Positions 10,312-30,221 of a DNA stretch of 64,000 nucleotides are shown here, one piece after another (the first letter of the stretch is position 1; the number at the start of each line of letters is the position of its first letter). The notes below the pieces were generated by a model. The model saw nothing but the letters and a program-made list of their open reading frames with translations, was not told where the DNA came from and did not search any database. Source of the stretch: Gracilimonas mengyeensis (GTDB lineage Bacteria > Bacteroidota > Rhodothermia > Balneolales > Balneolaceae); NCBI RefSeq assembly GCF_900182705.1, contig NZ_FXTP01000003.1, positions 62,001 to 126,000 of the forward strand, written 5' to 3'. The position numbers and the translations under genes were made by a program.

Positions 10312-12231
10312 TTAATTTGGAATAGCCTGAATACCTTTATAAGTAGGTTTCACTTGTAAGATTCTCTGCTTTTCATCAAACTTCAACGGATCTATGGCTA
10401 CCTCACGATGGAAGCCGGCTGCCCTGCCCATATTGATACCTTCCGGAACCGAAAAGCGATGATACACGATGTACCACTCATCTTTGCCCGGCACCTTAAT
10501 TACCGAATTGTGCCCGGTACCGTAAATACCTGGTTCAGGCTCAGGCTTCTTCGCGATAACAAGATTTTCTTCAGGAATCTGTAACGGCCCTAACGGACTA
10601 TCCGCCGTGGCATAGCGCACGCGATAATCAGGACTCCGGGTATCGTTTTCGCTCCACATAAAATAGTATTTCCCATTTCTGTAGAACACCTCCACTCCTT
10701 CGCGGAAGGTGTTATCAGGTGTCATCACTTGAATAGTCTCTTTTTTGAGGGAGATCATATCATCATTCAATTCTGCAACCGCCAAATAGCCATTGCCCCA
10801 ATACAAATAGGTTTTTCCGGTTTGCGGATCGGTAAATACATCCGGATCTATTTCCTGACCACCTTGCACGCCTTCAGGCTTGTAATCAATGAGCGGTTGA
10901 CCAGAATCTGTGAATGGACCGGTGGGTTCATCTGCTACCGCTACCCCAATTTGCTGAGCGGCCGTGAAGTAATAGAAGTATTTGTACTCGCCATCTATCT
11001 TCTTTTCCATAGCGGTGGGTGCCCAGGCATTTCTGTCGGTCCAACTTACGTCTTCTTTTAGGTTTAGAATGATGCCCTCATTTGTCCAGTTAACCAAGTC
11101 TTCCGAAGAAAATGTTTGAAAGTAATAGCCGCTCCAGCTATCAAAACCATCGCTGGTTGGGTACAGGTAATACTTTTCATCCTTATGCGAATAAAAGATT
11201 TCCGGATCGGCATAGTAGCCTTCCAGCACGGGATTATTATTTATTTCGGGAAGATCCCCGGGTGTACCCCATTCATTTAAAAGCCGCTTTAACTCACTAC
11301 GGGTAATGGGCAACACGGAACCATGACGCGGATGGAAATCCATGGATATCTCATGATCCACCACCTCAAAATTTCTTAAATCCGTTGTTTTGGTAAACTG
11401 ATAAGACCCTTGCATGTACACATCGTACATCAGAATATATTCATTGCTTTGATTCAGCTTAAACACCCCTGAACCTTCTACCGCTTCAGAAGTTTGCTGT
11501 TTGTAATCCGGGCTTTCCTCCCATTTACCGGAGGTTAAATCAGTGGTAGTGGCAAGCTTGATGCCATTGCCATGCCCCTCGGTTTTATAAAACAAATGGT
11601 ACACATCATCTTTTAAAACAATATCGCCGTCAATGCAGGATTTCCCATTGGAAGGGAAAAACAATTGTTTGGGCTCGCTTTCCAAACTTGTAAAGTCTTC
11701 ATTGGCATAGGCGTAGTAAATGATGTCCGACTCATCCCCATGCTTCATCGAGAAATAGATCATGTACTTGCCGGCTTCTTCGTCATAAATGGTTTGGGGC
11801 GCCCATACCCGCTTCAGGTCTTCATGGCCTTCAAAACGGTTTTGGATGTTTACTACGCTGGAAGTCCAGTTCACCAAATCCGGGGATTTCAGCAACACCA
11901 TGGCACGATTGGAGCTCCACCCCAAGTGCGAAGTCATATCAGTGACCACCATATAAAAGTTGCCATCTTTACCGCGGAGAATATGTGGATCGCGCACTCC
12001 GCCTGTAGAACTAATCTTTTTAGAATCGAGAACGGGCTGGTTGTCATTCAGGACATAAAAGTTGTAACCGTCCAGGCTCACCCCAAAATGGATGGCTTCT
12101 TCTTCCACGCTATTGCCGGTAAAATAGGCGAAGAGATAGGCTTCCAAATCTTTTTCAAGCGGTTGCGCGTTAAGCGTGTTGAATGCTAATAGTGTGAGTA
12201 CACCGGCTATGTAAATCTGGAGTCGGGTCAT
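10312..12231 (-). CDS. Secreted double GH43 enzyme (two complete five-bladed propellers)
   Basis: The start is ATG 12231, where MTRLQIYIAGVLTLLAFNTLNAQ gives a signal peptide; upstream in-frame codons add an unlikely leader. It encodes 639 aa with two GH43 domains. The first has a base Asp in GGVRDPHIL, a pKa-modulating Asp in CIDGDIVL and an acid Glu in AVEGSGVF. The second repeats the set: YYADPEIF, EIDPDVF and EGVEVFYRNG. Both therefore look catalytic. GH43 enzymes are mainly exo-acting alpha-L-arabinofuranosidases, beta-xylosidases or galactosidases; in this arabinogalactan block arabinose removal is the most likely task. It is the last gene of block 2, 160 bp after DUF4861. Subfamilies cannot be assigned by eye. 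Confidence 0.88.
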   Translation of the reverse strand: MTRLQIYIAGVLTLLAFNTLNAQPLEKDLEAYLFAYFTGNSVEEEAIHFGVSLDGYNFYVLNDNQPVLDSKKISSTGGVRDPHILRGKDGNFYMVVTDMTSHLGWSSNRAMVLLKSPDLVNWTSSVVNIQNRFEGHEDLKRVWAPQTIYDEEAGKYMIYFSMKHGDESDIIYYAYANEDFTSLESEPKQLFFPSNGKSCIDGDIVLKDDVYHLFYKTEGHGNGIKLATTTDLTSGKWEESPDYKQQTSEAVEGSGVFKLNQSNEYILMYDVYMQGSYQFTKTTDLRNFEVVDHEISMDFHPRHGSVLPITRSELKRLLNEWGTPGDLPEINNNPVLEGYYADPEIFYSHKDEKYYLYPTSDGFDSWSGYYFQTFSSEDLVNWTNEGIILNLKEDVSWTDRNAWAPTAMEKKIDGEYKYFYYFTAAQQIGVAVADEPTGPFTDSGQPLIDYKPEGVQGGQEIDPDVFTDPQTGKTYLYWGNGYLAVAELNDDMISLKKETIQVMTPDNTFREGVEVFYRNGKYYFMWSENDTRSPDYRVRYATADSPLGPLQIPEENLVIAKKPEPEPGIYGTGHNSVIKVPGKDEWYIVYHRFSVPEGINMGRAAGFHREVAIDPLKFDEKQRILQVKPTYKGIQAIPN

Positions 12232-12391
12232 GTCTTTCTTTCCACTCGTTTTTTGCAAACCTGAGGACTTCCGATATCCGTCAGATTCGGCCCTTATGAT
12301 GTAATTTTTTAATAGTAAATACTGTATCCAAAACACTTCCGGGGTTATCCTAAAGTGTTCAAATAATTTTTATGATCGCTGGTTTGTGGAT

Positions 12392-13417: not shown

Positions 13418-13425
13418 TTTTACCG

Positions 13426-15492
13426 TCAATTTTTGGGTTGATAGATTTTTCCGACCTTCAGCTTGTCGCCTGATATATCCACTTCAAAATAGTGGGGATA
13501 GCGGATGTACCTCCCGTTTACACTTTTATGACTATGGGCTACCATCAGCAGCTTGCCTTCCAGGGTTCGGAACAGCATACCATGGCCAAAGTTGGGAGGA
13601 GTGATGGGCTCTTCTTCCTGAACCCAGGGGCCGTCGATAGTGCCGCTTTCAGAGTAGGCTACTCCCTGCGTGTACACATCGTGTACCCAGCTGGTCCAAA
13701 TCATGCCAAGCCGGCCGGTTTCTGTACGGAACAGGTATGGTCCATCGGTCACTTTACTTGGGCCGGCACTTCCGTCTTCATATTCTTCTTCGCTCCAGGG
13801 AGAGTCCTTGGCGCGGAACAAGATTTCACGTCCGCCCACTGTACCGCTTAAATCAGGCTTCAGTTCAATTTTTTCCATCGTACCGTTCCAGTTCTGGAGC
13901 CATTCATGGCAAAAAATCATATAGGGTTTTCCATCCTCACCAACCCAAAAAGTACCGTCTAAAGTGGGTTCATCGGCTGGTAAATAGGTAGGATCTTCCA
14001 TCGGCACATAAGGACCACCGGGTTTATCGCTTACCAGCACGTGACTGGCACGGCGATCAATCGCATTGCCCCTGACCGTATCAATTTGCACATCCCGGTT
14101 CGTGAAGGTGGCGAAGTAGTAGTACTTGCCTTTATACTGATGCAATTCTGCCGCCCAAATCATGGGATTAAGTCCCATCCAGGAACTGGGGTCGGTCATA
14201 GCTACTTCGTAGGGTCCATCCCAAAATTTCAGATCTTTGCTTTCCCAAAGTAAACCGCCGGTGCCCGTCATATAATAGGTTTCCGTTTCGGAATCAGCTA
14301 AAATGCTCGGATCGCTCAATATGATGGAATCCAGGGGGACATCTTGCCGTATTGGAAATCTTCTCCTCTCAAAGAAATCCAGGCTCCATTCATCCCGCCA
14401 TCGTATCACCGGCTGGCCGTTTACTACTTCGATAGGCAGCCAAATATATCGGCCGTCGATATGGTTCTCCGGTTTCCAGCGGTCGGCCATAAAAATAAAG
14501 GCGTCCTCTTTACCCTGAACCGGGAGCACAAAAGTGCTTTGGGAATGGAACGTAACATCCGAGTCTTTCCCGATTGCCGGGTTGTTAAGCTCTTCCCAAG
14601 GACCCCAAATAGATTTTGCCCTGAATGATCGGGCCGCATTCGGGTCCCAGCCGGTGGCCCCTGAAGCAATCAGGTAATACCATCCGTCTTTTTGAAAGAT
14701 CGCCGGAGCTTCATTATGGCCTCCGGGTTTTACTCGTATATATTTTCCGGTGAAATCCAGATAGTCGTCCGTTAATTCGGAGATGTGTAGGGTGAGATTG
14801 TCTTCGGCAGAATGAATGTGATAGGCGGTTCCGTCCTCATCCACAAAAAGGGTCATATCGCGCGACATCTGCCCTTTTTCAAAATCTCTTCGTACAAACA
14901 GGCCTTCTTCAATGGCTTCATGCCATTCGGGCGTCCACCACTCAAGAGTGTCTTCACCGGGCTTGGGCGATTTCCATGCTTCTTCAAAATTCACCGGCCA
15001 CTGTTTGGCATTCGGGCGAAATGATTTCTGGTACTCGAAAGGTCCCGTCGGGCTATCACTTACAGCCAATCCCGTACGGGCGGCACTGTAGCCCTGGTCC
15101 TTCAACTCCAGGTGAAACCACATCACATATTGTTCGGTACTTTCATTGTAGATCACTTTAGGGCGCTCCATCACGCTGCCAGCCGTGATTTCAGAATCCG
15201 GATCCTCACTTACGGAGAGGGCCACGCCTTCCTTTTTCCAATTGTACAAATCATTTGAAGAATACACATTGATGCCCACATGGGCCTTGCTGGTTTTGCC
15301 CTTATGCTCTCCATACCAGTAGTACACGCCATCGTGGTACAAAATGCCGCCGCCATGGGCATTGATATGCACCCCGTCCGTATCTTCCCAAATTTCTCCG
15401 GGTTGAAAAGAGGTATGGTGTTGCGCCTGGGCCACCATCGGCGGCCCAAACACAACAGTGAACAGAAATAAGCAAAGGATTGCTTTTCTCAT
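13426..15492 (-). CDS. Secreted GH43_24 exo-beta-1,3-galactanase fused to a second GH43 domain
   Basis: 688 aa, signal peptide 1-24. The N-terminal domain has INAHGGGILYHDGVYYWYGEH (residues 43-63), the signature of subfamily GH43_24, whose characterised members release galactose or beta-1,6-branched units from the beta-1,3-galactan backbone of arabinogalactan. Expected active-site residues are present: E109 in MERPK, acid E261 in GHNEAPA and Q318 in FHSQSTF, the Gln that replaces the usual Asp base in this subfamily. Residues about 160-205 are an unusual Trp- and acid-rich insertion. A second GH43 domain follows from about residue 390 (IILSDPSILADSET, WAAELHQYKGKYY, EPTLDGTFWVGEDG). The gene is 6 bp after the beta-glucuronidase gene, which fits stepwise backbone stripping. 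Confidence 0.9.
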   Translation of the reverse strand: MRKAILCLFLFTVVFGPPMVAQAQHHTSFQPGEIWEDTDGVHINAHGGGILYHDGVYYWYGEHKGKTSKAHVGINVYSSNDLYNWKKEGVALSVSEDPDSEITAGSVMERPKVIYNESTEQYVMWFHLELKDQGYSAARTGLAVSDSPTGPFEYQKSFRPNAKQWPVNFEEAWKSPKPGEDTLEWWTPEWHEAIEEGLFVRRDFEKGQMSRDMTLFVDEDGTAYHIHSAEDNLTLHISELTDDYLDFTGKYIRVKPGGHNEAPAIFQKDGWYYLIASGATGWDPNAARSFRAKSIWGPWEELNNPAIGKDSDVTFHSQSTFVLPVQGKEDAFIFMADRWKPENHIDGRYIWLPIEVVNGQPVIRWRDEWSLDFFERRRFPIRQDVPLDSIILSDPSILADSETETYYMTGTGGLLWESKDLKFWDGPYEVAMTDPSSWMGLNPMIWAAELHQYKGKYYYFATFTNRDVQIDTVRGNAIDRRASHVLVSDKPGGPYVPMEDPTYLPADEPTLDGTFWVGEDGKPYMIFCHEWLQNWNGTMEKIELKPDLSGTVGGREILFRAKDSPWSEEEYEDGSAGPSKVTDGPYLFRTETGRLGMIWTSWVHDVYTQGVAYSESGTIDGPWVQEEEPITPPNFGHGMLFRTLEGKLLMVAHSHKSVNGRYIRYPHYFEVDISGDKLKVGKIYQPKN

Positions 15493-15498
15493 GGCAGG

Positions 15499-17352
15499 TC
15501 ACCTGGCTTTTTCCTGTTGTTCTTTTAATTCTTTGTAATAAGCCTGCAGTACATAGAAGGCTTTCTTCTTTTCACCATTGTTACCAATCAGGCCTTTCCG
15601 GTTCCATCCATCCTGGTATTCGGGATGATTGCGGCGTGGAGAGCGAAAGTCCGTCAAAATCCAGGGTGAAAGTCCGGTGAAGTTGTCCGGGAAACGATTC
15701 TTAAACATATCTACTTGCTCCTCATAGTACCATTCCTGGTACTCTTCACTGAAACGGGTTAGCTTATCGGCATGAAAGCCTGGCTGGGCGCCCGCACCGG
15801 TTTCACTAATAAAAAATGGTTTGTCATATTTGGTTTCCCATTGGGCTGTGCGACAGGCATCGGGAAGTCCGCCGTACCAGCCGAGGTATTCATTCAGGGA
15901 AACGATATCGGTGTATTCACCCAATGGATCATCCACATAGTTTTTACCCTCGTTGTAACCAACCTCAAGAGCCGCCGACACTAAGCGGGTGTCGTCCATA
16001 CGCTTGGTATCTTTTACCAGCGTGCTCATGAAGTCGGTTCGCGTTTCACTAACAGGAGTTTCATTACCAACCGACCAAATGATGACCGAGGCCCGGTTGC
16101 GGTCCCGGGATACCATTTCTTTCAGTTGAGCCTGCGCTTTATCCAGCACTTCGGGATTCTCAAAATCGATAGTCCAGTACACAGGAATCTCAGTCCAAAC
16201 CAGTATACCTAAAGAGTCAGCCAGGCGCGGCATATATTCATTGTGTGGATAATGCGCCAGGCGTACCATGTTGGCATTGAGATCTTCCACCCATTCGTAG
16301 AGTTGAGCGGCATCATCACGGCTGTTGGCACGGCGCATCTCCGGAGCAATTTCTTCATGGATACTGATGCCCCTCAAAAAGACCTTCTCGCCATTCAACA
16401 GGATATCATCGCCCTGCACTTCCACTTTGCGGAAACCAATTTTATCGATGATTGTATGGCCGTCAAAACTGACCTTTACTTCATAAAGTTTCGGGTTTGA
16501 TGTGGTCCACAGCTCCATGTTTTCCGCCTCAAAGTTAACCGCCACCGAATCGCCGGAAATAGCAAGAGCTTCTTCGAGTCCCAGTTCAGGGATTTCAATG
16601 ATAGCATTGCCGGAAGCAGACTTGTTCATCTTCAGCCAGCCTGTGATTTGATAGCTATCATTTTCTAAAGCAGCTTTAATATCCTGTTGCTGATCCAATT
16701 GGATATGATATTGCTGTACAAATTGCTGTGGGGTAATCACCAGCTTCACATCCCGGGTAATACCGCCAAAATTCCACCAATCGGTGTTTACTGTGGGGAT
16801 TTCTTCGGGGTGGCGTTTGTTATCTACCTTCACCACCAGGTTGTTGTCTTTTGCTTTCAAAAGTCCCGATGGAATCTCAAAATTGAAGGGCGTAAATCCA
16901 CCTTTATGCATACCCAGCTTTTTGCCGTTCAGATACACATGCGCTTCGTAGTTGATGGCCCCAAAATAGAGGTGAGCCACTTCATCTTCGGCCATTGCAG
17001 GTTTATCAAAATACCGTTGATACCACACCGTCCCCTCATAATAGAGGAACACACGGTCCTGCGAATTCCAGTCACCAGGCACTTCAATGCTGTATTCATC
17101 ACTGTAGCCGTGTTCGATTAAATCAGACTTTTCTGGGTTTTCGTTAATATTCCAGTAGGCTCCGCCGTCGTTTTCGTTTCGCTCTCCATACCGGTAGTTA
17201 TAAAATCCTGTTTCATAGGGATCTATAATGTAGTGCCAGTCCCCGTTTAGCGACACGGCATTGCGGCCCTGCGTGTTGATAATCAGGTTATCCTGGGCAA
17301 AAAGTGGCTGCATCAGGGCAAGCATGAATAGTATTGAAAGAAGTCTTCTCAT
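15499..17352 (-). CDS. Secreted GH2 beta-glucuronidase-type enzyme
   Basis: 617 aa with signal peptide (ending QPLFAQ). Domain order is the GH2 sugar-binding jelly roll (ISLNG-type start, EGTVWYQRYF, DWWNFGGITRDVKL), an Ig-like domain and the TIM barrel. Catalytic residues are E431 in WSVGNE (acid/base) and E517 in FISETGAG (nucleophile). W583-N584-R585-K586-G587 gives the NxKG motif, which in beta-glucuronidases binds the carboxylate and separates them from beta-galactosidases. The likely job is removing terminal beta-GlcA (or 4-O-methyl-GlcA) from arabinogalactan side chains. It lies between the LacZ-type gene and the exo-galactanase. Confidence 0.88.
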   Translation of the reverse strand: MRRLLSILFMLALMQPLFAQDNLIINTQGRNAVSLNGDWHYIIDPYETGFYNYRYGERNENDGGAYWNINENPEKSDLIEHGYSDEYSIEVPGDWNSQDRVFLYYEGTVWYQRYFDKPAMAEDEVAHLYFGAINYEAHVYLNGKKLGMHKGGFTPFNFEIPSGLLKAKDNNLVVKVDNKRHPEEIPTVNTDWWNFGGITRDVKLVITPQQFVQQYHIQLDQQQDIKAALENDSYQITGWLKMNKSASGNAIIEIPELGLEEALAISGDSVAVNFEAENMELWTTSNPKLYEVKVSFDGHTIIDKIGFRKVEVQGDDILLNGEKVFLRGISIHEEIAPEMRRANSRDDAAQLYEWVEDLNANMVRLAHYPHNEYMPRLADSLGILVWTEIPVYWTIDFENPEVLDKAQAQLKEMVSRDRNRASVIIWSVGNETPVSETRTDFMSTLVKDTKRMDDTRLVSAALEVGYNEGKNYVDDPLGEYTDIVSLNEYLGWYGGLPDACRTAQWETKYDKPFFISETGAGAQPGFHADKLTRFSEEYQEWYYEEQVDMFKNRFPDNFTGLSPWILTDFRSPRRNHPEYQDGWNRKGLIGNNGEKKKAFYVLQAYYKELKEQQEKAR

Positions 17353-17404: not shown

Positions 17405-20527
<3,123 letters not shown>

Positions 20528-20738: not shown

Positions 20739-21956
20739 TTACTTTTTGGAGTCTTTATATCGCATCATGGCTTCCACGAAATAGTAATCGCCGTAGGTCA
20801 ACGGCACGTCTACTTCACTGTTGCCGGGCAAACTGCCTACGCCATGCTTTAGCAGGAAGCCGCCATTCTCGCCTTCTTCAGCCAGGTACTTAGGAGTCAG
20901 CAAACTGGAGAGCATATCTACTGCATTTTCATAATAGTACTCTGCTTTTTCGCCCTCTGATAACGTACTTAACTCAAATAAAGCCGAGGCGATGATCGCC
21001 CCCGCAGAAGCATCACGGTAGGTATCAGGAATATTCGGGGCATTAAAATCCCAGTATGGAATTTTGTCTTCCGGTAAATTGGGGTGACTCAGAACAAAGT
21101 CTGCAATATTTTGTGCTTGCTCCAGGTATTTCTCATCGCCTGTTTCGCGGTAGGTCATTACGTACCCGTACAAACCCCAGGCTTGTCCGCGGGCCCAGGC
21201 CGACTCATCCGCTGCCCCCTGGTTGGTAATGCGAGCTTTCACAGAGCCATCATTTTCTTTATAAATCACTTCGTGATAAGAGCTGTAGTCAGGGCGGAAA
21301 TGATTTTCCATGGTGGTATTCGCATGGTTTACGGCAATGTCGTAATAAGTGCTGTCCCCGCTGTGCTCCGTAGCCCAAAACAGTAATTCCAGGTTCATCA
21401 TGTTATCGATGATCACCACTAAGTCACCTTCTTCTCCCTTGTTCCAGGAGGCGTTATCCCAAGACCGGATCGCTTTTACCGTATCCTGGTAACGGGTAGC
21501 CAGCGACTTTGCGCTGTTCATCAGGATCTCTTCATACTGCTCATTCTCCTGCTGACGGTTGGCATTCCCAAAGCTGCAATACATCATAAATCCAAGATCA
21601 TGGGTAGAAGTATTGTACTGTTCTTTTTTGAGATCTTTCATGACTTCCATGGCGCGCTTTCTCAGATGTGGAGCATCAATGGCTTCATCCAAATACAACA
21701 AGGTTCCGGGATAGAAGCCACTACACCACCAGCCCGAGCCGCTGGTTTCCAGCTCATCCCTTTCATCGTAATAGGTTTTGGGATATTCGCCCGGCTCAAT
21801 TTGGCTGCCCAAATATTCGTACTGTTTAGCGGCCAGCTCCAGGGTGCTATCAATGGTTGAAATGGATGGTGATGAATCTTGTTGGGTCGCTGATTCGCTA
21901 TTGCACCCTACAAAAACACTAAGGGTAAATAAAAAAAGTAGAAGTTTAATTTTCAT
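20739..21956 (-). CDS. GH88 unsaturated glucuronyl hydrolase, lipoprotein
   Basis: 405 aa with a lipoprotein signal (LSVFVGC, Cys18). It is an (alpha/alpha)6-barrel: WWCSGFYPGTLLYL, then D120 in STHDLGFMMY and D184 in VVIIDNMMNLELLFWA. These match the two catalytic Asp residues of GH88 (positions 88 and 149 in the Bacillus enzyme). Also present are RITNQGAADESAWARGQAWGLYGY and the C-terminal PLTYGDYYFVEAMMRY. GH88 enzymes remove 4,5-unsaturated uronic acids by hydrating the double bond, so an upstream polysaccharide lyase is expected; the BNR_4 protein encoded 45 bp upstream is the obvious candidate. Confidence 0.93.
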   Translation of the reverse strand: MKIKLLLFLFTLSVFVGCNSESATQQDSSPSISTIDSTLELAAKQYEYLGSQIEPGEYPKTYYDERDELETSGSGWWCSGFYPGTLLYLDEAIDAPHLRKRAMEVMKDLKKEQYNTSTHDLGFMMYCSFGNANRQQENEQYEEILMNSAKSLATRYQDTVKAIRSWDNASWNKGEEGDLVVIIDNMMNLELLFWATEHSGDSTYYDIAVNHANTTMENHFRPDYSSYHEVIYKENDGSVKARITNQGAADESAWARGQAWGLYGYVMTYRETGDEKYLEQAQNIADFVLSHPNLPEDKIPYWDFNAPNIPDTYRDASAGAIIASALFELSTLSEGEKAEYYYENAVDMLSSLLTPKYLAEEGENGGFLLKHGVGSLPGNSEVDVPLTYGDYYFVEAMMRYKDSKK

Positions 21957-22001
21957 TATTAGCTGGCTATTTCTAATGATTAATAGTTGAGTTTGTGCGT
22001 C

Positions 22002-23330
22002 TTAATTTCTGTTTTCAAACAGTTGCTGAAGATTTTCTATTTCGATGACCTGAACCGGCTTCGGGGCTACTTCTGCCACGCCTTCTCCATCCACTTGCTC
22101 TACTTTTTGTGAGAAGATGTGCAGTTCCCGTTTCGTATTCCATAATTCCACATCATAATTCGGTTCCCATTGTCCCACGCCCTGCTCCGTTACATCTTTC
22201 AAGGTCCACTTCTTTTTATCTAAAGAGGCGCCCGCTACAGTAATTTTACTGTCTCTTTCTTCATCCCGGAACAGTAAATACACATAATTTTCGTCCATCA
22301 AAATTTCGGGACGGGAAATCGGGATGCGTTTGGTGCCACCTCCACTCAGTGAAAAGGTACTTTCCCGGAATCCTGTATCCATCAGTTTCCATCGGCCCTC
22401 TTCCAGGTAGATGATCTTAAATTGTGGTTTACTGCCGGCATTCCAATAGGTGGTGATGTACGGATTACCGTTTTCATCTACCGTCATGGCGGTTTGATTG
22501 ATAAGCTCGCTGTTTTCAGGTATTTCCCAGGCTAGCTCAGCCGCGGTTTCCGTGATGGGGAGATCGTATGCTTCGCCGTTGGATTTCTTCCAGCTTCGGC
22601 CGCCATCGCTTGATACGGCATAGGCCATGTCATGATTGGAGGCCACGTCCCAGGTTTCGCGCCATACCCACGAAAGATGTAGATCACCGTTTTCTGCAAC
22701 ATGCATCTGCCAGTAAGCACTGCGCTGTTCTTCCCCGTCCAGCAAATTGTTTTGGAGCTGAATCCATTGTTCGGTGTCAGGATTGTATTCATTTAAAACC
22801 ATATTGCCCCTTCCCGATTCTCCAGAGCGATAGCTGAACAAGAGCTTTTCATTGGGTAGATTAAAAAACTGTGGGTACGTCACTCTTTCTTCCTGCAAGC
22901 CGGTCATTGAAAGCTCCTGAGAAAGCTCAAGTCCGAATGGCTCGGTGCTTTTTACATAACGCAAAGGGGTATTATGCTGATCCCAGCTTACGTGTAAAAA
23001 CCCGTCACTATCAACCGCCAGGCTGATGCTGTTATGGGCATCTTCCACATTTCCGGAATATCTGCTGATGTGCGTTTTCCAATTTTGATCGCCTAACTCA
23101 CGCTTCGCCAAAACCATGCGCCCTTCGGCATCATAATAAGCGGCAAATTGCACATCTTGGTACGTGGTGAGCGCTTTTCCGCGAAAAATAACGGCGTTCA
23201 CTGAGTTATTGGCCCAGCCTTGACCAATGGCCGTTGTCTTGATTATTTGCTCTTCGGAGCAACCAGCTATGAGGCCTGCTAACAGGAATAAAAAAAGTGA
23301 AATGATATGTGATCTTAACGCTAAACTCAC
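22002..23330 (-). CDS. BNR_4 seven-bladed propeller lipoprotein, likely rhamnose-glucuronate lyase or rhamnosidase (PL27/GH145-like)
   Basis: 442 aa from a GTG start at 23330 that overlaps the preceding stop by 4 bases (GTGA), so translation is coupled. Lipobox LIAGC with Cys24. The sequence has the BNR_4 pattern EDAHNSISLAVDSDGFLHVSWDQHN (H99, H119) and repeated Asp-box-like strands (SSDGGRSW). This fold covers PL24, PL25 and PL27 lyases and GH145 alpha-L-rhamnosidases. PL27 and GH145 act on L-Rha-alpha-1,4-GlcA caps of gum arabic-type arabinogalactan. With a GH88 next door, a lyase that leaves an unsaturated GlcA is favoured, but the two activities cannot be separated by eye. Confidence 0.78.
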   Translation of the reverse strand: MSLALRSHIISLFLFLLAGLIAGCSEEQIIKTTAIGQGWANNSVNAVIFRGKALTTYQDVQFAAYYDAEGRMVLAKRELGDQNWKTHISRYSGNVEDAHNSISLAVDSDGFLHVSWDQHNTPLRYVKSTEPFGLELSQELSMTGLQEERVTYPQFFNLPNEKLLFSYRSGESGRGNMVLNEYNPDTEQWIQLQNNLLDGEEQRSAYWQMHVAENGDLHLSWVWRETWDVASNHDMAYAVSSDGGRSWKKSNGEAYDLPITETAAELAWEIPENSELINQTAMTVDENGNPYITTYWNAGSKPQFKIIYLEEGRWKLMDTGFRESTFSLSGGGTKRIPISRPEILMDENYVYLLFRDEERDSKITVAGASLDKKKWTLKDVTEQGVGQWEPNYDVELWNTKRELHIFSQKVEQVDGEGVAEVAPKPVQVIEIENLQQLFENRN

Positions 23331-25294
23331 TGTACTGTCTTTCTTTTGATGGTTACTTCTTTAGCAAAATAACTGGTGCCCTCCAATCCTTCAGCATCTC
23401 CCGAAGAACCTTCCATCTGCAAGTTAATGATAAGCCACAATGGTTTATTGGTGAAATTGGTGTAATGCACAACGGTTTGTTTACCATCAATAAAATAGGT
23501 GATGCTCGCATGTTCCTCATCCAAACGCTTGATCCGTGCCGAATAGCTGTGCCATGTACCCGCTGCATCCGGGATGGATTCTTTAATAGTCGTTACATTT
23601 TGCGGGGTGATAAACGTATTCTGCCAGTTGATGTCATCTCCTTTGAATTCCAGAATATCACTTTCCGGCGGCCAGCCATCCACTGCGGTGAGCCAAAAAG
23701 CAGGCCAGGTTCCGGGGGCTGTCGGGGCTTTGAAAACACCTGATACTTCATATTCAGGGTATTCTTCCGTTATGACAATTTGATGCTTGGCATGAATCGC
23801 ACCGGAAGCATATTTAAGGGGCAGGTTTGGATGCTTACTGCTTGCCTTTTGCTCTTCTTCAAAACGTTCGGCTTTCAGCTCCAGCATATTATCCTGCACA
23901 ATAATGTTCTTCTCAAACATCCGTGCCGTGCCATTATGGTCATCTCCCCATGGATAGAATAGGTTCCAGTGCTTTTTGAGAGACTGGGCATCACTAAATG
24001 AAGTAGCGGGTAACACAACCTCCCAATCCTCTTCCTGAGGACGCCGGTTTGGGTAATAGGCATGATCGATGGGGGCTTCTTTGCCACCCCAAATTTGCTT
24101 TTGGGTCCAGTCTTTGGCCGGGGCAGACCAGAATGGCGTTTGCCCAGGCAAACCCAGCACTAAAAAGGCGGTACTACTCAGGTATAGGCTTCCGGTAGAA
24201 ATGTATCGTTCAGCAATGTCTTTTTGAGGGCCATAAAAACCGATGGTGAGCCACCCGTTTTCATCAAAAGTTCCGGGTACTTCCATTTGTTTTTTGATGA
24301 CAGCATGCAGGGCTCCCCGTACCTGGGCTGGATCGAGCTCATCCGGTAATTGCTGCATTAGTGCTATTTGGGACAACGCCTGAAAAGCGCCCACGCGGTA
24401 CGCCAGCGAGCGACCAATCGGCGGATAGGTTCCCTCCGGTGAGATCAATCGTTCCTGAACAGCGGCGTACCGTTGGGCCCGTTCCAGGAATACATGAGCG
24501 TTATCAATGAATTTGTAGCGATAGCGCCAGTGCCTTAATTCCGATTTCTTGTCTTCCAACACCGAAAGGATATCCAAAATCATGGGCTGGATGACATAGC
24601 TGTTGTAATAGTCCCAGTGAAAATCGGGGCCATCACCGTAGGTACCGTCGCCTACATACCACTCATCGTGTTTAAACAACGCATATTCCATGCGCACCAT
24701 GTCAGGTTCACCGTCAAATTTCAATAAAGCCGCTTCAATCATCCCACTAAATAACAACCAGTTCATATAAGGTGGGGAGGTCGCTCGTGTTTTTCTGAAT
24801 TCCCTGAGCATCCGCTCTTGTGTGGTTTTATCCAAATTGCCCCACAACTGTTTGGGTGCCCGAATGAGCGCTTCTGCGAGAAATGCTGCATCTACAAGAG
24901 GCTGACCTTCGCCGGAAAAATTCAGGTAATCATTAGCCTCGGGATTAACGGCATTTGCGAGACCTTTTACTGCAAGGTCTATATATTTTTTCCGAAGTTG
25001 GCCTTCTTCGGTGTCATCAGGACCCAGCTCAAGCCACGGGGCCATACCGGCCAGTGTTCGTCCAACGGCTTCTAAGTGGGTTACGTCTTCTCTGCCGCCG
25101 TATGGGTTGTTTGCCTTTTCTACAGGCATATTCTTTTTTAGCTGATCATTAGCCAGGTTTGTCAATACAGGATCGGCAATATCAACCAGCATGTTTACAT
25201 AGTATTCCCTCTGTCCCAGTTCTTTTTGCTGAGACATGCCCATCAAGGGCCACATCAATAATAAAATCAGTAAAACAGGAATAGCGCGATTCAT
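23327..25294 (-). CDS. GH154 (DUF2264) - GH16 fusion: putative beta-glucuronidase plus endo-beta-1,3-galactanase
   Basis: 655 aa, signal peptide 1-21. Residues about 25-415 look like DUF2264, now CAZy GH154 (exo-beta-glucuronidases active on arabinogalactan): VTHLEAVGRTLAGMAPWLEL, FSGEGQPLVDAAFLAEAL, DGPDFHWDYYNSYVIQPMIL and YPPIGRSLAYR. Residues about 425-655 look like a GH16 jelly roll: YASGAIHAKHQ, YEVSGVFKAP, TWPAFWLTAVDGWPPESDILEFKG and WHSYSARI. The GH16 catalytic pattern ExDxxE is met by E544, D546 and E549. GH16 includes the endo-beta-1,3-galactanases found in arabinogalactan loci. The two domains join near residue 420 with no frameshift sign. The gene is the first enzyme after SusD2 and overlaps the BNR_4 gene by 4 bases. 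Confidence 0.82.
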   Translation of the reverse strand: MNRAIPVLLILLLMWPLMGMSQQKELGQREYYVNMLVDIADPVLTNLANDQLKKNMPVEKANNPYGGREDVTHLEAVGRTLAGMAPWLELGPDDTEEGQLRKKYIDLAVKGLANAVNPEANDYLNFSGEGQPLVDAAFLAEALIRAPKQLWGNLDKTTQERMLREFRKTRATSPPYMNWLLFSGMIEAALLKFDGEPDMVRMEYALFKHDEWYVGDGTYGDGPDFHWDYYNSYVIQPMILDILSVLEDKKSELRHWRYRYKFIDNAHVFLERAQRYAAVQERLISPEGTYPPIGRSLAYRVGAFQALSQIALMQQLPDELDPAQVRGALHAVIKKQMEVPGTFDENGWLTIGFYGPQKDIAERYISTGSLYLSSTAFLVLGLPGQTPFWSAPAKDWTQKQIWGGKEAPIDHAYYPNRRPQEEDWEVVLPATSFSDAQSLKKHWNLFYPWGDDHNGTARMFEKNIIVQDNMLELKAERFEEEQKASSKHPNLPLKYASGAIHAKHQIVITEEYPEYEVSGVFKAPTAPGTWPAFWLTAVDGWPPESDILEFKGDDINWQNTFITPQNVTTIKESIPDAAGTWHSYSARIKRLDEEHASITYFIDGKQTVVHYTNFTNKPLWLIINLQMEGSSGDAEGLEGTSYFAKEVTIKRKTVQ

Positions 25295-25555: not shown

Positions 25556-27169
25556 TTAATAACCTGGGTTTTGTGTCAATTCCGCTTCGGTATTAAGCTG
25601 AATTTCAGAAATCGGAATGGGCCACAACTTGTTAGCATCTCTAAGGCCTTCTATGGTTGAATTTTCTGGAGCGCCATAATTGTAGGCATCCGTAGCACGA
25701 TCTAAGAGCTTGTCGGTTCTCATGAGCTCCATGCGGCGATTTTCTTCGGCAAGAAGTTCCCGTGCGCGTTCATCAAGAACAAAGTCCAGATCCATTTCAG
25801 CGGCTGTAACCAGAGGGGCATTCGCTCTTTCTCTCAGCACGTTGATGGAGGCAGCTGCACCAGCCATATCCCCTTGCTGAACCTGAGCTTCTGCTTTAAG
25901 CAGATAGGTTTCTCCCAATCGCATCAGGATAAAATCCTTCCACATCCCCCATCCAAAAGTATCTCTTGGATCGAAATGTTTCCATTTCATGGTGTATGGT
26001 GTCAGGATGAACAAGGTATCCGCACCTTCATAAGGAACCGGCTGTCCATATAGCTCACTGCTTGGATCGTTGTACCAGTGCTGGCGGTGAATGTTGAATC
26101 GGGAGTTACGCATGTCCCCTTCATCATATAGATTATACAATACCCAGTTGTTCAGGCGCAAACGGGCAATACCACGGCCCCCCAAAGAATCGGCAGGCAT
26201 CAACCCATTGCGGCTGTGATAAGAGCCGCCCCAAACACGTCGCTGTTGCGGTGCACCAGTTGATCCGCCACGAACATCGGAAGGGTTTTCCATTTCCAGC
26301 ACCCAAATAGCTTCACTATTACCTTGGGAGTGACGCATGTTTCCTTTCCAAAACATATCGGAGAAAGGATCGCCAGGTTGGTCGGCTTTAACTCCATAAC
26401 GTGCGTTCACTAAGGTGAAGTTGGGATTGTTAATTACGCGGTCAGCTTGTGCTTCAGCTTCCGCATATTTACCCACTCGCAGGTAATGTTTTGCCAACAA
26501 CTGGCTAGCGGCTGCATTACTTACTCTTTGCTCGTCTTCAGTTTGGCCGAAATCGGGAAGATTTTGAACGGCATACTGTAAGTCTTCTTCAATAAGTGCA
26601 TTCACTTCACTCAAAGGAGCCCGTGTGAAATCAAACTTGGGCTCAGCAATGGGATCCGTTACTATGGGCACCGGACCAAATAGTGTGGCCAGTTCTTCGT
26701 AAGCTTTTGCTCTGAAGAAACGGGCTTCTGCATTATATGCAGCCAGCCTCTCTTCGGTCATGCCCTCAATAGCCATGCCTTTGCTTTCAATGTTATTGAT
26801 CGCATTATTGGCATTTTCAATGATGTCGTATTCCCATCTCCACATCCACCATGTTGCGTGAACATCCGGAGTAAGGGTATTGTATCTGAAAAAGGGAATT
26901 TCAACGCCCTGATACTGAACAGGCCAGGCTATGTCGGTCCCCACGTTCCATAGGGCAGGCCATCCCTGTTGGTCAGATTTAGAATAGAAGTTACTGGTTG
27001 CCTCATACATCAGTATGAGGGTTGCCCGGAGGCTTTCCCGATCGTTTATGTCGGTAGAATACTGGTCTTCAACCTTTTCGTTTAGGAAGCTGTCGCTACA
27101 GGAAGAGATGACCAGAAGAAATAAAACCGAAACTGCTGTAATATATCTTAGTTGGTGTTTCATAGTCAT
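25556..27169 (-). CDS. SusD-family glycan-binding lipoprotein (SusD2)
   Basis: 537 aa. ATG at 27169, with a second ATG two codons later equally possible. The lipoprotein signal ends in LVISSC. SusD features: SDSFLNEKVEDQYSTDIND, a TPR-like core (RFFRAKAYEELATLFGPVPIVTDP, SQLLAKHYLRVGKYAEAEAQ), DFILMRLGETYLLKAEAQ and the ending WPIPISEIQLNTEAELTQNPGY. It sits 12 bp after SusC2 and is its partner. By context it binds arabinogalactan side-chain oligosaccharides. Confidence 0.95.
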   Translation of the reverse strand: MTMKHQLRYITAVSVLFLLVISSCSDSFLNEKVEDQYSTDINDRESLRATLILMYEATSNFYSKSDQQGWPALWNVGTDIAWPVQYQGVEIPFFRYNTLTPDVHATWWMWRWEYDIIENANNAINNIESKGMAIEGMTEERLAAYNAEARFFRAKAYEELATLFGPVPIVTDPIAEPKFDFTRAPLSEVNALIEEDLQYAVQNLPDFGQTEDEQRVSNAAASQLLAKHYLRVGKYAEAEAQADRVINNPNFTLVNARYGVKADQPGDPFSDMFWKGNMRHSQGNSEAIWVLEMENPSDVRGGSTGAPQQRRVWGGSYHSRNGLMPADSLGGRGIARLRLNNWVLYNLYDEGDMRNSRFNIHRQHWYNDPSSELYGQPVPYEGADTLFILTPYTMKWKHFDPRDTFGWGMWKDFILMRLGETYLLKAEAQVQQGDMAGAAASINVLRERANAPLVTAAEMDLDFVLDERARELLAEENRRMELMRTDKLLDRATDAYNYGAPENSTIEGLRDANKLWPIPISEIQLNTEAELTQNPGY

Positions 27170-27181
27170 AAATTTTTTGTG

Positions 27182-30154
27182 TTATAGTGAAATATTCAGT
27201 CCTAAAGAAAGGGTGCGTACCAACGGGTAGTTGTTGCCCCAATCTCCTGATCCTCTTGAATACTGATTACTTTCTGGATCCCATCCTTCCCAATCAGTAA
27301 AGGTGTACAAGTTCCGGCCCGCAAAGTATACGGTCAGATCTCTGATGTTATACCTTTGCACCAATGATTGCGGAACCCTGTAGCTCAGGCGAACATCTTT
27401 AATTCGCAAATAACTGGCATCTTGTGGATGTCCGTAGCCTCTGTTGTTTTCATAGGCTACTAAGGAAGGCCATTTATTACTTTGATTCTCAGGAGTCCAA
27501 TAGCCTACATCAGCAGGAATATTTCGGCGACCTACTTCGTCGGTGTAGTACACATCGGAATTGTTTCTTAGTATTCCTTGTGCTGTTTCTAAAAATACAT
27601 TCAGCGTAAAGTTTTTATAGTAGAATGTATTGGTGAAACCACCGGTCCATTTTGGCAAAGAACTGCCCAGGATTTTACGGTCGTTTTCAGAATCAATCTG
27701 TCCGTCTCCATTCAAGTCGGCAAACTTTACATCTCCCGCTCTCGCATTGGGGTCATGATTCAAGTGTTCACCGGCATCAATTTCATCTTCCTGCCAGATA
27801 CCCAACTTTTGGTAGTCATAAACTACGTTTAAAGATTGACCAATAAACCATCTGTTCGGGATATCGTCTTCGTTATCACCATACAATTTCAAAATCTCAT
27901 TCTTGTAAGTAGAGAATACGATCGTAGATTCCCATCTAAAATCCCCCGTGTTAAGGTTCTCGGTATTCAAAGTGATATCGATACCCTGATTACCTACCTC
28001 TCCAATATTATCAAGGATGCTACCAGAACCGGTAATATTGGGAATATTTCTTGCAAGAATCAGATCCGTGGTTTTGCTGTCATATACTTCTATAGAACCT
28101 CTAAGCCGGTTTCTGTACAATCCAAAGTCCACACCCAGGTTAGCTGTAGTAGTAGATTCCCACTGCAGGTTGGGGTTACCCATACCAGCTATGTAGGTAC
28201 CAATTTGAGCTGAACCACTGAATGGGTATAAGACTGTACCAGCCGTACTTTTAGTTCCATATACATCAATAGCAGGGTTACCGGTCGTTCCATAAGAGAA
28301 TCTCAACTTCAGATCATTCACCTGAAGCACATCTTCCATGAAGCTCTCATTGGCAATATTCCAACCCAAAGCTACAGAAGGAAATACCCCATACTTGGTG
28401 GTTTCCGAACCAAATACAGAAGCACCGTCTCTACGAGCTGTTACTGAAAGCAGATAACGGCTATCGTAGTTGTAGTTCACCCGACCCATTTGTGAGAGCC
28501 AGGTCTGTTCGTTCTTGTCAGAGTCTCCTTCAATGTTATCGGCTGATCCTACCTGGTGATAGGATAAAGCATCACTAAAAAAGCCGATTCCTCGTATCCA
28601 GGAATTCTGATAGATTTGCTTCTCTGCACTATATAAAGCGGTAAGGTCAAAATGATGCTTATCAATGTCCTTGGTGTAGGTAACAATATTTTCGAGTACC
28701 CAACGGTTTCTTTCTGAATTGTATTTGTAGGCCGTACCGTTATTATCATTGGCCGCACGACCAGAATAGGTGGCATTGTATCGCGGATTGCGATAATAAG
28801 AACCGTTGATTCTATACTGCAAGCCTTCAATACCTGGCTGAACAATAGCATAGGCCGTTCCAGAAAGGTTTTGCACATGATCTACCCGGTCAGTGGTTAG
28901 TCCAAGCATAGGATTTACAAACAATTGTTCCGGCGCCATTGGATAAATGATATAATCGCCATTCTCATCAGTTGGCACTGAATAGGGACTCATTGCCGTG
29001 GCAAATAAGAAATTGGCGCGTCCACCGTCATAGTTATTATTAGCATAATTTGCATTGGCTCCCGTTGTCAACCAGTCAGTTACTTCCAGGTCCAGCTTAG
29101 CTCTTAAATTGAGCCGGTTATACTGGTATCCCTTAATCACACCTTTTTGATCCAAATAGCCACCAGAAAGGAAATATCTTGCTTTTTCCGTACCACCAGA
29201 AAGACTTACATTATGCTCAGCAATCAAACCGGTACGGGTAGCCGTATCCATCCAGTCATTAGTGATACCGGCATTATAATTTTCAATTTCTGCGGTATTA
29301 GGCAGTATGTTTGTCTGCTCCAATCCTCTTTGCTCCATGTAATCCGCATATTTTTGTACATAGGCATCGGGACTCATAGGCTCCAACATATGAGAAAAGT
29401 CTTCCCAACCGTAGGACACACTATAACTTACTTCAGGCTTTCCTGCCTGACCTTGTTTTGTAGTGATAAGCACAACCCCGTTTGAACCACGATTACCATA
29501 AATGGCCGTCGCAGAGGCATCTTTAAGCACCTCTATAGATTCAATATCCCGGGTATTAATATCATTTAGGCTACCATAGAATGGCGTACCATCTACAACG
29601 ATAAAAGCGCTATTGTCGGCTTCAATTGAATTAAGCCCTCTCACCTGAACACCTGCTACCGCACCCGGAACAGACGACCTTGTTGTAATGTTTAGGCCTG
29701 CCGTGGTGCCCTGTATCGCCTGGGTTACGTTGGTAACAGGCAAGTTTTCTAAACGACCTTTGGGCACTGAAGAAACCGCACCGGTAACATCCGAGCGCTT
29801 CTGGGTACCGTACCCAATCACTACCAGCTCTTCTCCCGAAAGTGTTTGGGGAGATAAAACCACATTGATTAGCTCCCGGCCATTAATAGGTATTTCCTGC
29901 CGTTCAAAACCAAGAAAAGAGAATACTAGTGTGTCTTGGAGTGAAGGGACCGTTAATTCAAAAAATCCCTCAATATCTGTTGTAGTTCCCACACTGGTGG
30001 TACCCTTAACAAATATATTCACCCCGGGTAATGGTTCTTCCGTATCAGCTTCCGTTACTGTACCTGACACTTGAGTTTGTGCATTTGCCATTCCTACCAG
30101 GAGTAGCATCAGTACAGATGTACACAAAAACTTATAAAGTAACTTTTGTATCAT
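27182..30154 (-). CDS. SusC-family TonB-dependent oligosaccharide transporter (SusC2)
   Basis: About 990 aa. The start is ATG 30154 (MIQKLLYKFLC), which has a strong GAGGAG ribosome binding site at 30161-30166; an earlier in-frame ATG at 30178 lacks one. Signal peptide ends ANAQ. Then a carboxypeptidase-regulatory-like domain (TQVSGTVTEADTEEPLPGVNIFVKG), GEELVVIGYGTQKRSDVTGAVSS, plug with ARG-LNS elements (QVRGLNSIEADNSAFIVVDG) and SIEVLKDASATAIYGNRGSNGVVLITTK, and the barrel ending VRTLSLGLNISL. It heads the arabinogalactan block and shares its promoter architecture with SusC1. Confidence 0.96.
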   Translation of the reverse strand: MIQKLLYKFLCTSVLMLLLVGMANAQTQVSGTVTEADTEEPLPGVNIFVKGTTSVGTTTDIEGFFELTVPSLQDTLVFSFLGFERQEIPINGRELINVVLSPQTLSGEELVVIGYGTQKRSDVTGAVSSVPKGRLENLPVTNVTQAIQGTTAGLNITTRSSVPGAVAGVQVRGLNSIEADNSAFIVVDGTPFYGSLNDINTRDIESIEVLKDASATAIYGNRGSNGVVLITTKQGQAGKPEVSYSVSYGWEDFSHMLEPMSPDAYVQKYADYMEQRGLEQTNILPNTAEIENYNAGITNDWMDTATRTGLIAEHNVSLSGGTEKARYFLSGGYLDQKGVIKGYQYNRLNLRAKLDLEVTDWLTTGANANYANNNYDGGRANFLFATAMSPYSVPTDENGDYIIYPMAPEQLFVNPMLGLTTDRVDHVQNLSGTAYAIVQPGIEGLQYRINGSYYRNPRYNATYSGRAANDNNGTAYKYNSERNRWVLENIVTYTKDIDKHHFDLTALYSAEKQIYQNSWIRGIGFFSDALSYHQVGSADNIEGDSDKNEQTWLSQMGRVNYNYDSRYLLSVTARRDGASVFGSETTKYGVFPSVALGWNIANESFMEDVLQVNDLKLRFSYGTTGNPAIDVYGTKSTAGTVLYPFSGSAQIGTYIAGMGNPNLQWESTTTANLGVDFGLYRNRLRGSIEVYDSKTTDLILARNIPNITGSGSILDNIGEVGNQGIDITLNTENLNTGDFRWESTIVFSTYKNEILKLYGDNEDDIPNRWFIGQSLNVVYDYQKLGIWQEDEIDAGEHLNHDPNARAGDVKFADLNGDGQIDSENDRKILGSSLPKWTGGFTNTFYYKNFTLNVFLETAQGILRNNSDVYYTDEVGRRNIPADVGYWTPENQSNKWPSLVAYENNRGYGHPQDASYLRIKDVRLSYRVPQSLVQRYNIRDLTVYFAGRNLYTFTDWEGWDPESNQYSRGSGDWGNNYPLVRTLSLGLNISL

Positions 30155-30160
30155 ATTTTG

Positions 30161-30166
30161 CTCCTC
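30161..30166 (-). promoter_or_regulatory. Ribosome binding site that fixes the SusC2 start
   Basis: GAGGAG on the minus strand, 6 nt before ATG 30154. It supports the shorter SusC2 start over ATG 30178. Confidence 0.75.
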
Positions 30167-30221
30167 GTTATAAGACATTTAATAATTGATAAGGTTAACT
30201 TTAAATGCCTTTATTTTCCGT

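Follow-up and report, generated by a model that had tools for sequence, protein, structure and literature searches.

Closest described enzymes and systems

The enzymes closest to the propeller described here are the Bacteroides GH145 proteins BT3686, BACCELL_00856, BACINT_00347 and BACPLE_00338, now classified as PL42. According to the available part of their published account (PMC8406133), the lyase site of these proteins cleaves wine AGP and not gum arabic, apparently requiring a modified substrate, and mutants of BT3686 at His90, Tyr143 or Arg333 lose activity on wine AGP. GH145 enzymes without His48, BACCELL_00856 and BACPLE_00338 among them, still eliminate on wine AGP and show no hydrolase activity on gum arabic. 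In Bacteroides plebeius PUL5, the same account pairs such a lyase with a GH105 enzyme on wine AGP. A further PL42 member, FoRham1 of Fusarium oxysporum, is an L-Rha-alpha-1,4-GlcA lyase (PMC8377490, PMC10951650). The chondroitin cycle of BcPUL25 links a PL35 lyase, a GH154 dehydratase and a GH88 hydrolase, and the available text of that study (PMC12269599) reports that the GH154 proteins BcGDH and BT_3677 dehydrate terminal GlcA to delta-4,5-GlcA, BT3677 having first been reported, in work cited there, as an exo-beta-1,6-glucuronidase.

Gene layout of the Gracilimonas locus

The window analysed here, a 64,000-nucleotide stretch of contig NZ_FXTP01000003.1 of Gracilimonas mengyeensis, carries adjoining genes for a GH154-GH16 protein, a BNR_4 propeller and a GH88 protein, all on the minus strand. 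The features to which the text refers are as follows.

27182..30178, minus strand: SusC-like TonB-dependent transporter at the head of the operon, identified by reading the sequence; homologues lie 5' of GH154 in relatives
25556..27169, minus strand: SusD-like protein at the head of the operon, identified by reading the sequence; SusD homologues lie 5' of GH154 in relatives
25294..23327, minus strand: GH154-type (DUF2264) domain (residues ~25-415) fused to a GH16 domain (~420-655), 655 aa; from Pfam, folds and residues
23327..23330, minus strand: 4-base overlap of the GH154-GH16 stop and the PL42 GTG start, from ORF coordinates
23330..22002, minus strand: BNR_4 seven-bladed propeller, PL42 (ex-GH145), predicted Rha-alpha-1,4-GlcA lyase, 442 aa, GTG start
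21956..20739, minus strand: GH88, predicted unsaturated glucuronyl hydrolase, 405 aa; from Pfam, the 3WIW match and the catalytic Asp pair
17405..20476, minus strand: GH2 beta-galactosidase of LacZ type (NCBIfam NF052611, 1003.6 bits, cut-off 999)
15499..17352, minus strand: GH2 exo-beta-uronidase, glucuronidase or galacturonidase (7VQM E 4e-184, 6D1N E 2e-174)
13426..15492, minus strand: two-domain GH43, an N-terminal exo-beta-1,3-galactanase-like half and a second GH43 domain (6EUG and 7BYS matches)
10312..12336, minus strand: GH43 protein, arabinofuranosidase/xylosidase-like (Pfam and sequence comparison)

The place of the three genes and the overlap of the first two, as given in a preliminary description of this DNA, agree with the ORF coordinates, and 45 bases separate the PL42 and GH88 genes. 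The domain contents given there are likewise borne out by Pfam, together with folds or a PDB match: DUF2264 (E 2.5e-119) and Glyco_hydro_16 (E 8e-05) in one protein, BNR_4 (E 3.4e-88) in the propeller, and Glyco_hydro_88 (E 2.2e-07) in the third. Although the GH88 and GH16 scores barely exceed their curated cut-offs (30.6 against 26.6 bits and 22.6 against 22 bits, respectively), both calls are firm, given a match of the GH88 protein to 3WIW at E 4.8e-98, and a GH16 fold at Z ~21 with an intact ExDxxE motif. A search of the literature on GH154/DUF2264, GH16, arabinogalactan and glucuronic acid dehydratase, at the level of titles and abstract openings, returned no description of such an operon.

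Base composition of the operon gives no sign of foreign origin. By eye, lipobox-like motifs are present in the PL42 (LIAGC) and GH88 (FVGC) proteins; a loose lipobox pattern occurs in 18 of 57 PL42 relatives and 13 of 26 GH88 relatives, with false matches among them.

A PL42 propeller with a conserved lyase site

In a PDB sequence search, the nearest solved relatives of the propeller were GH145/PL42 proteins (E 1e-132 to 1e-136), followed by FoRham1 (E 7e-30), while ulvan lyases gave far weaker matches (Uly1 at E 2.4e-07; LOR_107 at E 0.015, over part only), and PL25 was absent from the matches listed. The predicted model gave Z 54-60 to GH145, 42-45 to FoRham1, 33 to PL25 and 29-30 to PL24. 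For the three Bacteroides proteins with a solved structure and for 4IRT, which account for the Z scores of 54-60, identity in the structure alignment is 46-48%; identity to FoRham1 is 24%, and to the PL24/PL25 ulvan lyases 13-20% (Z 29-33), which does not amount to close sequence kinship. Against the NCBIfam BT3686 family the propeller scores 581.7 bits, below the equivalog cut-off of 700. By sequence and by likeness of the predicted fold to FoRham1 and BT3686, the propeller is assigned to PL42. The preliminary description had placed it in a "PL27/GH145 type", of which the GH145 part stands. The PL27 name is not supported: the relatives, predicted model and fold matches of the window protein are all beta-propellers, whereas the literature gives PL27 an (alpha/alpha)6 barrel fold and puts its identity to the PL42 lyase at 3-5%. 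No PL27 chain occurred among PDB sequence matches to E 10 or the 50 fold matches listed, an absence which alone proves nothing.

An active-site comparison, a check that had been proposed earlier, was made with BT3686 and FoRham1 and gave a divided answer, with loss of the hydrolase histidine and retention of the whole anterior lyase site. The anterior PL42 set His85, His105, Asp83, Arg166, Tyr150 and Tyr202 corresponds to His99, His119, Asp97, Arg168, Tyr152 and Tyr206 of the window protein, the Asp83-Asp97 match being placed by its position two before the first His and standing outside the residue count over relatives. BT3686 and BACINT_00347 have the same anterior residues. The BT3686 lyase residues His90, His110, Tyr143 and Arg333, as well as FoRham1 Arg166, Ser170, Arg220, Asn275 and Gln276, are identical in the window protein and in 57/57 relatives, and Tyr202 is kept in 56/57. 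On the posterior face, His48 of the GH145 hydrolase is replaced by Tyr57, and FoRham1 also has Tyr at this position. While the core of the lyase site is invariant, position 48 takes 13 residue types among the 57 relatives, with His in 25 of 68 rows; its changes on the tree number 18, where 200 shuffles gave a value of 20.1 (sd 1.8) and 18 or fewer changes arose in 34 of these. In PL42 relatives, position 48 is by these sequence comparisons freely variable. GH88/105 genes were present at 8/19 loci with His48 and 24/38 without it (counted by hand), with no clear difference.

These data bear on the reading of the propeller as a hydrolytic GH145 alpha-L-rhamnosidase acting through its posterior pocket, with GH88 serving the dehydratase product only. 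The closest sequences are indeed GH145 proteins, and these include the hydrolase BT3686, but the sole catalytic candidate is Tyr57 in the window protein, enzymes without His48 lack hydrolase activity on gum arabic in the published work cited above, and the position itself varies freely. We consider this reading very unlikely. FoRham1 Tyr26 and Pro223 are Phe49 and Trp227 in the window protein, so FoRham1's activity on gum arabic need not be shared. Furthermore, since the Bacteroides lyase site ignores gum arabic and the window propeller resembles it, the gum arabic assay at A235 could mislead.

The GH154 domain as a probable dehydratase

In an AlphaFold2 model of the GH154-GH16 protein (pLDDT 84), the GH154 domain matches 8OI4, 9O4U and 9NWF at Z 58-59, and the GH16 domain matches GH16 structures at the Z noted above. 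Identity of the GH154 domain is 46% to 8OI4 (Z 58.8) and 44-45% to the dehydratase. Nine of ten residues of the BcGDH active-site set (E74, R78, N176, N177, W178, F181, Y229, R285, Y289, Y354) are identical; the exception, Asn176, is Met177 in the window and varies too across 21 loci rows, in all of which (21/21) the other residues are kept. Because characterised members dehydrate terminal GlcA and the window keeps nine of ten residues, its GH154 domain is probably a dehydratase and not a hydrolytic glucuronidase. The preliminary description had treated GH154 as a hydrolytic beta-glucuronidase providing a separate route, a claim which the published dehydratases do not support; as these make the same kind of unsaturated GlcA, the GH154 route would also run through GH88.

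A PL27-type lyase accompanied by hydrolytic glucuronidases (GH154 and GH2) as an independent second route would leave the lyase chemistry unchanged, and could draw on the first report on BT3677 and on the GH2 at 15499-17352, for which the nearest solved structures belong to a beta-galacturonidase and to beta-glucuronidases. The differing PL27 fold and the available text of PMC12269599, in which GH154 members dehydrate and lack a hydrolase-like site, make this combination improbable, while a hydrolytic route through the GH2 enzyme itself is possible from its sequence. Equally improbable is a GH154 domain with the beta-galactosidase activity reported for its near relative 8OI4, trimming galactose beside the GH16 endo-enzyme. 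An endo-galactanase would be a sensible partner for such an activity, but the same text describes galactosidase activity as inconsistent between preparations and a hydrolase-like site in no structure of the family, and GH154 is tightly paired or fused with GH88/105.

The GH16 domain carries its ExDxxE motif as ESDILE, at position 547 in an open frame of 658 aa. Its best solved relative reaches only E 5.5e-05, with none close, and a galactanase role is our guess from context.

GH88, neighbouring genes and target glycan

Asp120 and Asp184 of the GH88 protein match Asp88 and Asp149 of the Bacillus UGL. The propeller residues and these neighbours fit the sequence of steps in the preliminary description, in which beta-elimination at Rha-GlcA would precede removal of unsaturated GlcA by GH88. 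A KduI equivalog is encoded elsewhere in the genome (381.5 bits, cut-off 250).

The GH43 protein at 13426..15492 matches 6EUG at E 2e-137 over residues 24-372 and the galactan 1,3-beta-galactosidase 7BYS at E 9e-55; its N-terminal half is presumably GH43_24. This relative of exo-beta-1,3-galactanases points to type II arabinogalactan as the target. Another Rha-GlcA glycan, ulvan-like or a sulfated AGP in place of plain plant AGP, would be in keeping with the fold common to PL24/PL25 ulvan lyases, the modified substrate apparently required by the Bacteroides lyase site (PMC8406133, in the part available), and the marine Flavobacteriaceae that, by organism names, make up many of the PL42 relatives. 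Nevertheless, no sulfatase was found among the window proteins run through Pfam, and the exo-beta-1,3-galactanase and GH2/GH43 neighbours suit arabinogalactan, leaving another glycan unlikely, though the least so of the alternatives weighed here.

Recurrence of the arrangement in other genomes

Using our own profiles over 57 PL42 loci, we identified the order GH154-PL42-GH88 at 10, which indicates that the three-gene arrangement is not due to chance. Among loci with GH154, 19 of 20 also have GH88/105 in the stretch, the twentieth being a 4-kb contig, compared with 13 of 37 loci without GH154. No GH88/105 was seen at 25/57 loci and no GH154 at 37/57, some contigs ending early. For GH154 loci sampled independently of PL42, GH88/105 lay nearby in 14/25, with none in the stretch taken in 11/25.

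Fusions also recur. GH154-GH16 fusion was found at 5/57 loci besides the window, all in Flavobacteriaceae genomes, and the idea that it is unique to the window was dropped; the two domains are separate neighbouring genes in Echinicola. Among 394 genomes of the phylum there was no second case, and across 92 genomes of the same family the window protein alone matched over GH154, the other 11 matches covering the GH16 part only. GH105::GH154 fusions occur in two genomes, one immediately 3' of a PL42 gene, and GH2::PL42 fusions exist in other genomes.

Compared with the Bacteroides GH145 proteins, the window enzyme has Tyr at position 48, adjoins GH154-GH16, and is partnered by GH88 rather than the GH105 of B. 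plebeius PUL5. That locus and the window both combine a PL42-type lyase with an unsaturated glucuronyl hydrolase that comes after it, GH154 being unmentioned in the available text of PMC8406133. FoRham1 has the fold and core catalytic residues in common with the window protein, which differs in belonging to a bacterial operon. BcPUL25 likewise sends the products of a lyase and a dehydratase to one unsaturated glucuronyl hydrolase, with another lyase family and another glycan, and GH16 is unmentioned in the available text of PMC12269599.

A proposed elimination route and its implications

From gene order, folds, residues, fusions and conservation we infer the activities, substrate and GH16 target of a likely AGP (type II arabinogalactan) utilisation operon in which caps are removed by elimination from two sides. 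The three genes probably strip acidic caps, Rha-capped and bare GlcA being converted to the same unsaturated sugar, which the third enzyme removes. The PL42 enzyme, through a His99/His119/Asp97 triad with Arg168 and Tyr152, would cleave Rha-alpha-1,4-GlcA by beta-elimination, freeing terminal L-Rha and leaving delta-4,5-GlcA; the GH154 domain would dehydrate Rha-free GlcA to the same product; and GH88 would take it off from both routes, its own product passing to KduI. The GH16 domain may open the galactan backbone, placing endo-cleavage and end-processing on one chain.

Whether this elimination module is general for arabinogalactan caps, with the unrelated PL42 lyase and GH154 dehydratase converting capped and bare GlcA to a single product that one unsaturated glucuronyl hydrolase would handle, and neighbours fused variously (GH154-GH16, GH105-GH154, GH2-PL42), we judge to be evenly balanced. 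Were it general, schemes of AGP breakdown in the gut that give GH154 an exo-beta-glucuronidase step would be in error, and the hydrolase histidine on the posterior side of GH145 would be an unconstrained position and not the function of the family. Each part is already known; it is the linked arrangement that revises the usual labels of two enzymes. GH154 and GH145 bear hydrolase names, while operon order, fusions and conservation suggest that both eliminate and share a downstream enzyme. The predicted product would shift accordingly from free GlcA to an unsaturated uronate for KduI, and the fused and adjoining genes offer concrete enzyme pairs for arabinogalactan analysis.

Organization of the cassette

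The preliminary description proposed a three-gene cassette whose first two genes overlap by 4 bases; both features were confirmed on the sequence, in a genome of 4.67 Mb. Gene calls for the cassette were based on open frames and Pfam domains.

30178..25556, minus strand, SusC/SusD pair upstream of GH154-GH16
25294..23327, minus strand, GH154-GH16
23330..22002, minus strand, BNR_4 propeller
21956..20739, minus strand, GH88

Downstream of GH88 follow, in order, GH2, GH2, GH43, DUF4861 and GH43 genes, and SusC/SusD pairs and Por_Secre_tail proteins are present among the window genes, a combination that points to Bacteroidota as the probable source phylum. The GH43 at 13426-15492 carries an N-terminal exo-beta-1,3-galactanase-like domain (6EUG, E 2e-137; 7BYS, E 9e-55) and, together with a GH2 beta-galactosidase and GH43 arabinosidase-like enzymes, fits type II arabinogalactan as the target. 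The genome encodes KduI (NCBIfam equivalog), with a UxuA relative 5 kb away, and so has potential routes for unsaturated as well as saturated uronates. Elsewhere in the window, a GatZ/KbaZ-like gene (47477-48793) and a PfkB kinase gene (57691-58656) beside polysaccharide loci suggest a galactose/tagatose catabolic neighbourhood, and two ORFs (45894-47420, 508 aa; 50692-52206, 504 aa) had no Pfam match at 0.001.

Family placement and active sites of the propeller

In a sequence search of solved structures, the best relatives of the propeller were Bacteroides GH145 proteins (5MUM, E 1.3e-136, then 5MVH, 4IRT and 5MUK), followed by FoRham1, the Fusarium oxysporum lyase of PL42 (E 7.4e-30), and weakly by PL24-type chains. 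Ranking by fold of an AlphaFold2 model (31 sequences, pLDDT 88, pTM 0.87) agreed with this order, placing GH145 closest (Z 54-60), then FoRham1 (42-45), PL25 (33) and PL24 (29-30). GH145 is reported to have since been renamed PL42. The earlier name PL27 is not supported, given its differing fold: PL27 enzymes are described as an N-terminal beta-sandwich with an (alpha/alpha)6 barrel rather than a beta-propeller, at 3-5% identity to FoRham1.

Two pockets are described for the Bacteroides GH145 protein BT3686: a posterior pocket hydrolysing Rha-GlcA via His48, and an anterior lyase pocket, where His90, Tyr143 and Arg333 mutants were inactive on wine AGP; proteins without His48 are reported to remain lyases (PMC8406133). 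For FoRham1, His85 is described as base/acid, together with His105, Asp83, Arg166 and Tyr150 (PMC8377490, PMC10951650). The window propeller retains the anterior lyase residues (His99, His119, Asp97, Arg168, Tyr152, Tyr206, Arg224, Asn278, Gln279 and Arg340), and Tyr57 replaces the hydrolase His48. Among 57 propeller relatives from named genomes, His90, His110, Tyr143, Arg333, Arg166, Ser170, Arg220, Asn275 and Gln276 (BT3686/FoRham1 numbering) were identical in all 57 and Tyr202 in 56, while position 48 was variable, with His (19 relatives), Tyr (12), Phe (9) and ten further residue kinds across the remainder. On a quick tree of 68 rows built with column 48 left out, His48 required 18 changes, compared with an average of 20.1 (sd 1.8) over 200 shuffles, of which 34 gave 18 or fewer; such counts are blind to gain versus loss, and the tree has one very long branch (FoRham1). 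Only 8 other columns among 102 of like composition were as labile (9 with His48 itself). This contrast between the anterior residues and position 48 indicates that selection maintains the lyase site, the hydrolase histidine being nearly unconstrained outside the studied enzymes.

GH154-GH16 and GH88

In a model of the fused protein (27 sequences, pLDDT 84, pTM 0.69), the fold matches over residues 22-416 were 8OI4 at Z 58.8 and, at Z 58, the beta-D-glucuronate dehydratase 9O4U/9NWF; residues 418-655 matched GH16 enzymes of several specificities (Z about 21). The GH154 domain is equally close to 8OI4, published as a beta-galactosidase, and to the dehydratase structures. As described in PMC12269599, the GH154 dehydratase BcGDH shows no hydrolase activity and converts terminal GlcA to delta-4,5-GlcA, made ready for GH88; methyl beta-glucuronide is also dehydrated by BT_3677, and ten BcGDH alanine mutants are inactive. 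Nine of those ten residues are identical in the window GH154 and in 21 of 21 rows from the surveyed loci; the tenth, Asn176, is Met177 in the window and varies among the rows. The GH16 motif ExDxxE is retained in the window and in fused and separate GH16 copies from PL42 loci.

The closest solved relative of GH88 was 3WIW (E 4.8e-98), followed by two groups of unsaturated glucuronyl hydrolases. Asp120 and Asp184 align with the catalytic Asp pair (Asp88 and Asp149) of Bacillus UGL.

Gene neighbourhoods and origin of the propeller

We surveyed the DNA around 57 PL42 relatives, with counts that are descriptive because the relatedness of the genomes was left uncorrected. GH88/105 was found in 32 loci, GH154 in 20, both in 19 and GH16 in 14; the one GH154-bearing locus without GH88/105 is a 4-kb contig. 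A GH88/105 frame lay within 36 bases downstream of PL42 in 24 of 57 (distance between open frames), that of locus L044 being a portion of a second BNR_4::GH105 protein. The order GH154-PL42-GH88 recurred in 10 of 57 (Pustulibacterium, two Galbibacter, Robertkochia, three Echinicola and three Sinomicrobium), nine of which have SusC and SusD frames ahead. GH154 and GH16 form one protein in 5 of 57 (Robertkochia, G. orientalis and three Sinomicrobium) and separate adjoining genes in Echinicola. Among 25 GH154 loci from a phylum sample chosen independently of PL42, GH88/105 was nearby in 14 (in two cases as a fusion with GH154) and a PL42 frame was present in 5.

Other fusions were also identified. 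GH88/105 and DUF2264 share one chain (Pfam) in genomes G351, directly after the PL42 gene, and G300. A fusion joining a GH2 uronidase relative to PL42 occurs in G253, surrounded by GH154, GH88, GH16, GH43 and GH2 genes; at L097:4625-7801 this type of fusion forms one 1059-aa protein adjoining GH154. A Prevotella PL42 locus encodes a GH43-GH16 fusion (L040:2064-4028). In two PL42 loci (L044:11203-13680, L051:14529-16955) a BNR_4 propeller is joined to a GH88/105 domain; these propellers belong to another branch and do not match PL42 at Arg220, Asn275 and Gln276. The window's own genome encodes a second BNR_4 protein (G000:C11:5732-7057, locus L101), likewise from the other BNR_4 branch, which keeps the two histidines and lacks the PL42 sugar-binding residues. 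The DUF4861 gene of the operon (window 12392-13429) has relatives near PL42 in Marinilabilia loci (L054, L060 and L061), where no GH88/105 was seen.

Within the genus, the propeller was found in 1 of 10 genomes searched, the window's own. Other members of the bacterial family have copies sharing 43-48% identity across most of the propeller's length, together with some weaker matches; the closest Flavobacteriaceae copies reach 59-64%, and in a quick tree the window propeller groups with seven Flavobacteriaceae copies (SH-aLRT 100). Base composition gave no sign of transfer. Judging from these sequence comparisons, the propeller gene (window 22002-23330) was likely gained horizontally from that Flavobacteriaceae group.

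Predicted function

The cassette function first proposed holds in outline, as a prediction; its enzyme names do not, PL42 replacing PL27 and a predicted GH154 dehydratase replacing a hydrolytic glucuronidase. A PL42 lyase and a GH154 dehydratase, encoded in one operon, would feed one unsaturated glucuronyl hydrolase (GH88) on arabinogalactan. The parts are already known, as is the principle of lyase, dehydratase and GH88 acting in chondroitin; the glycan there is chondroitin, whereas here it is predicted to be arabinogalactan. The novelty lies in the arrangement, in which a predicted lyase and dehydratase, in one operon with fusions, would share a single hydrolase on arabinogalactan.
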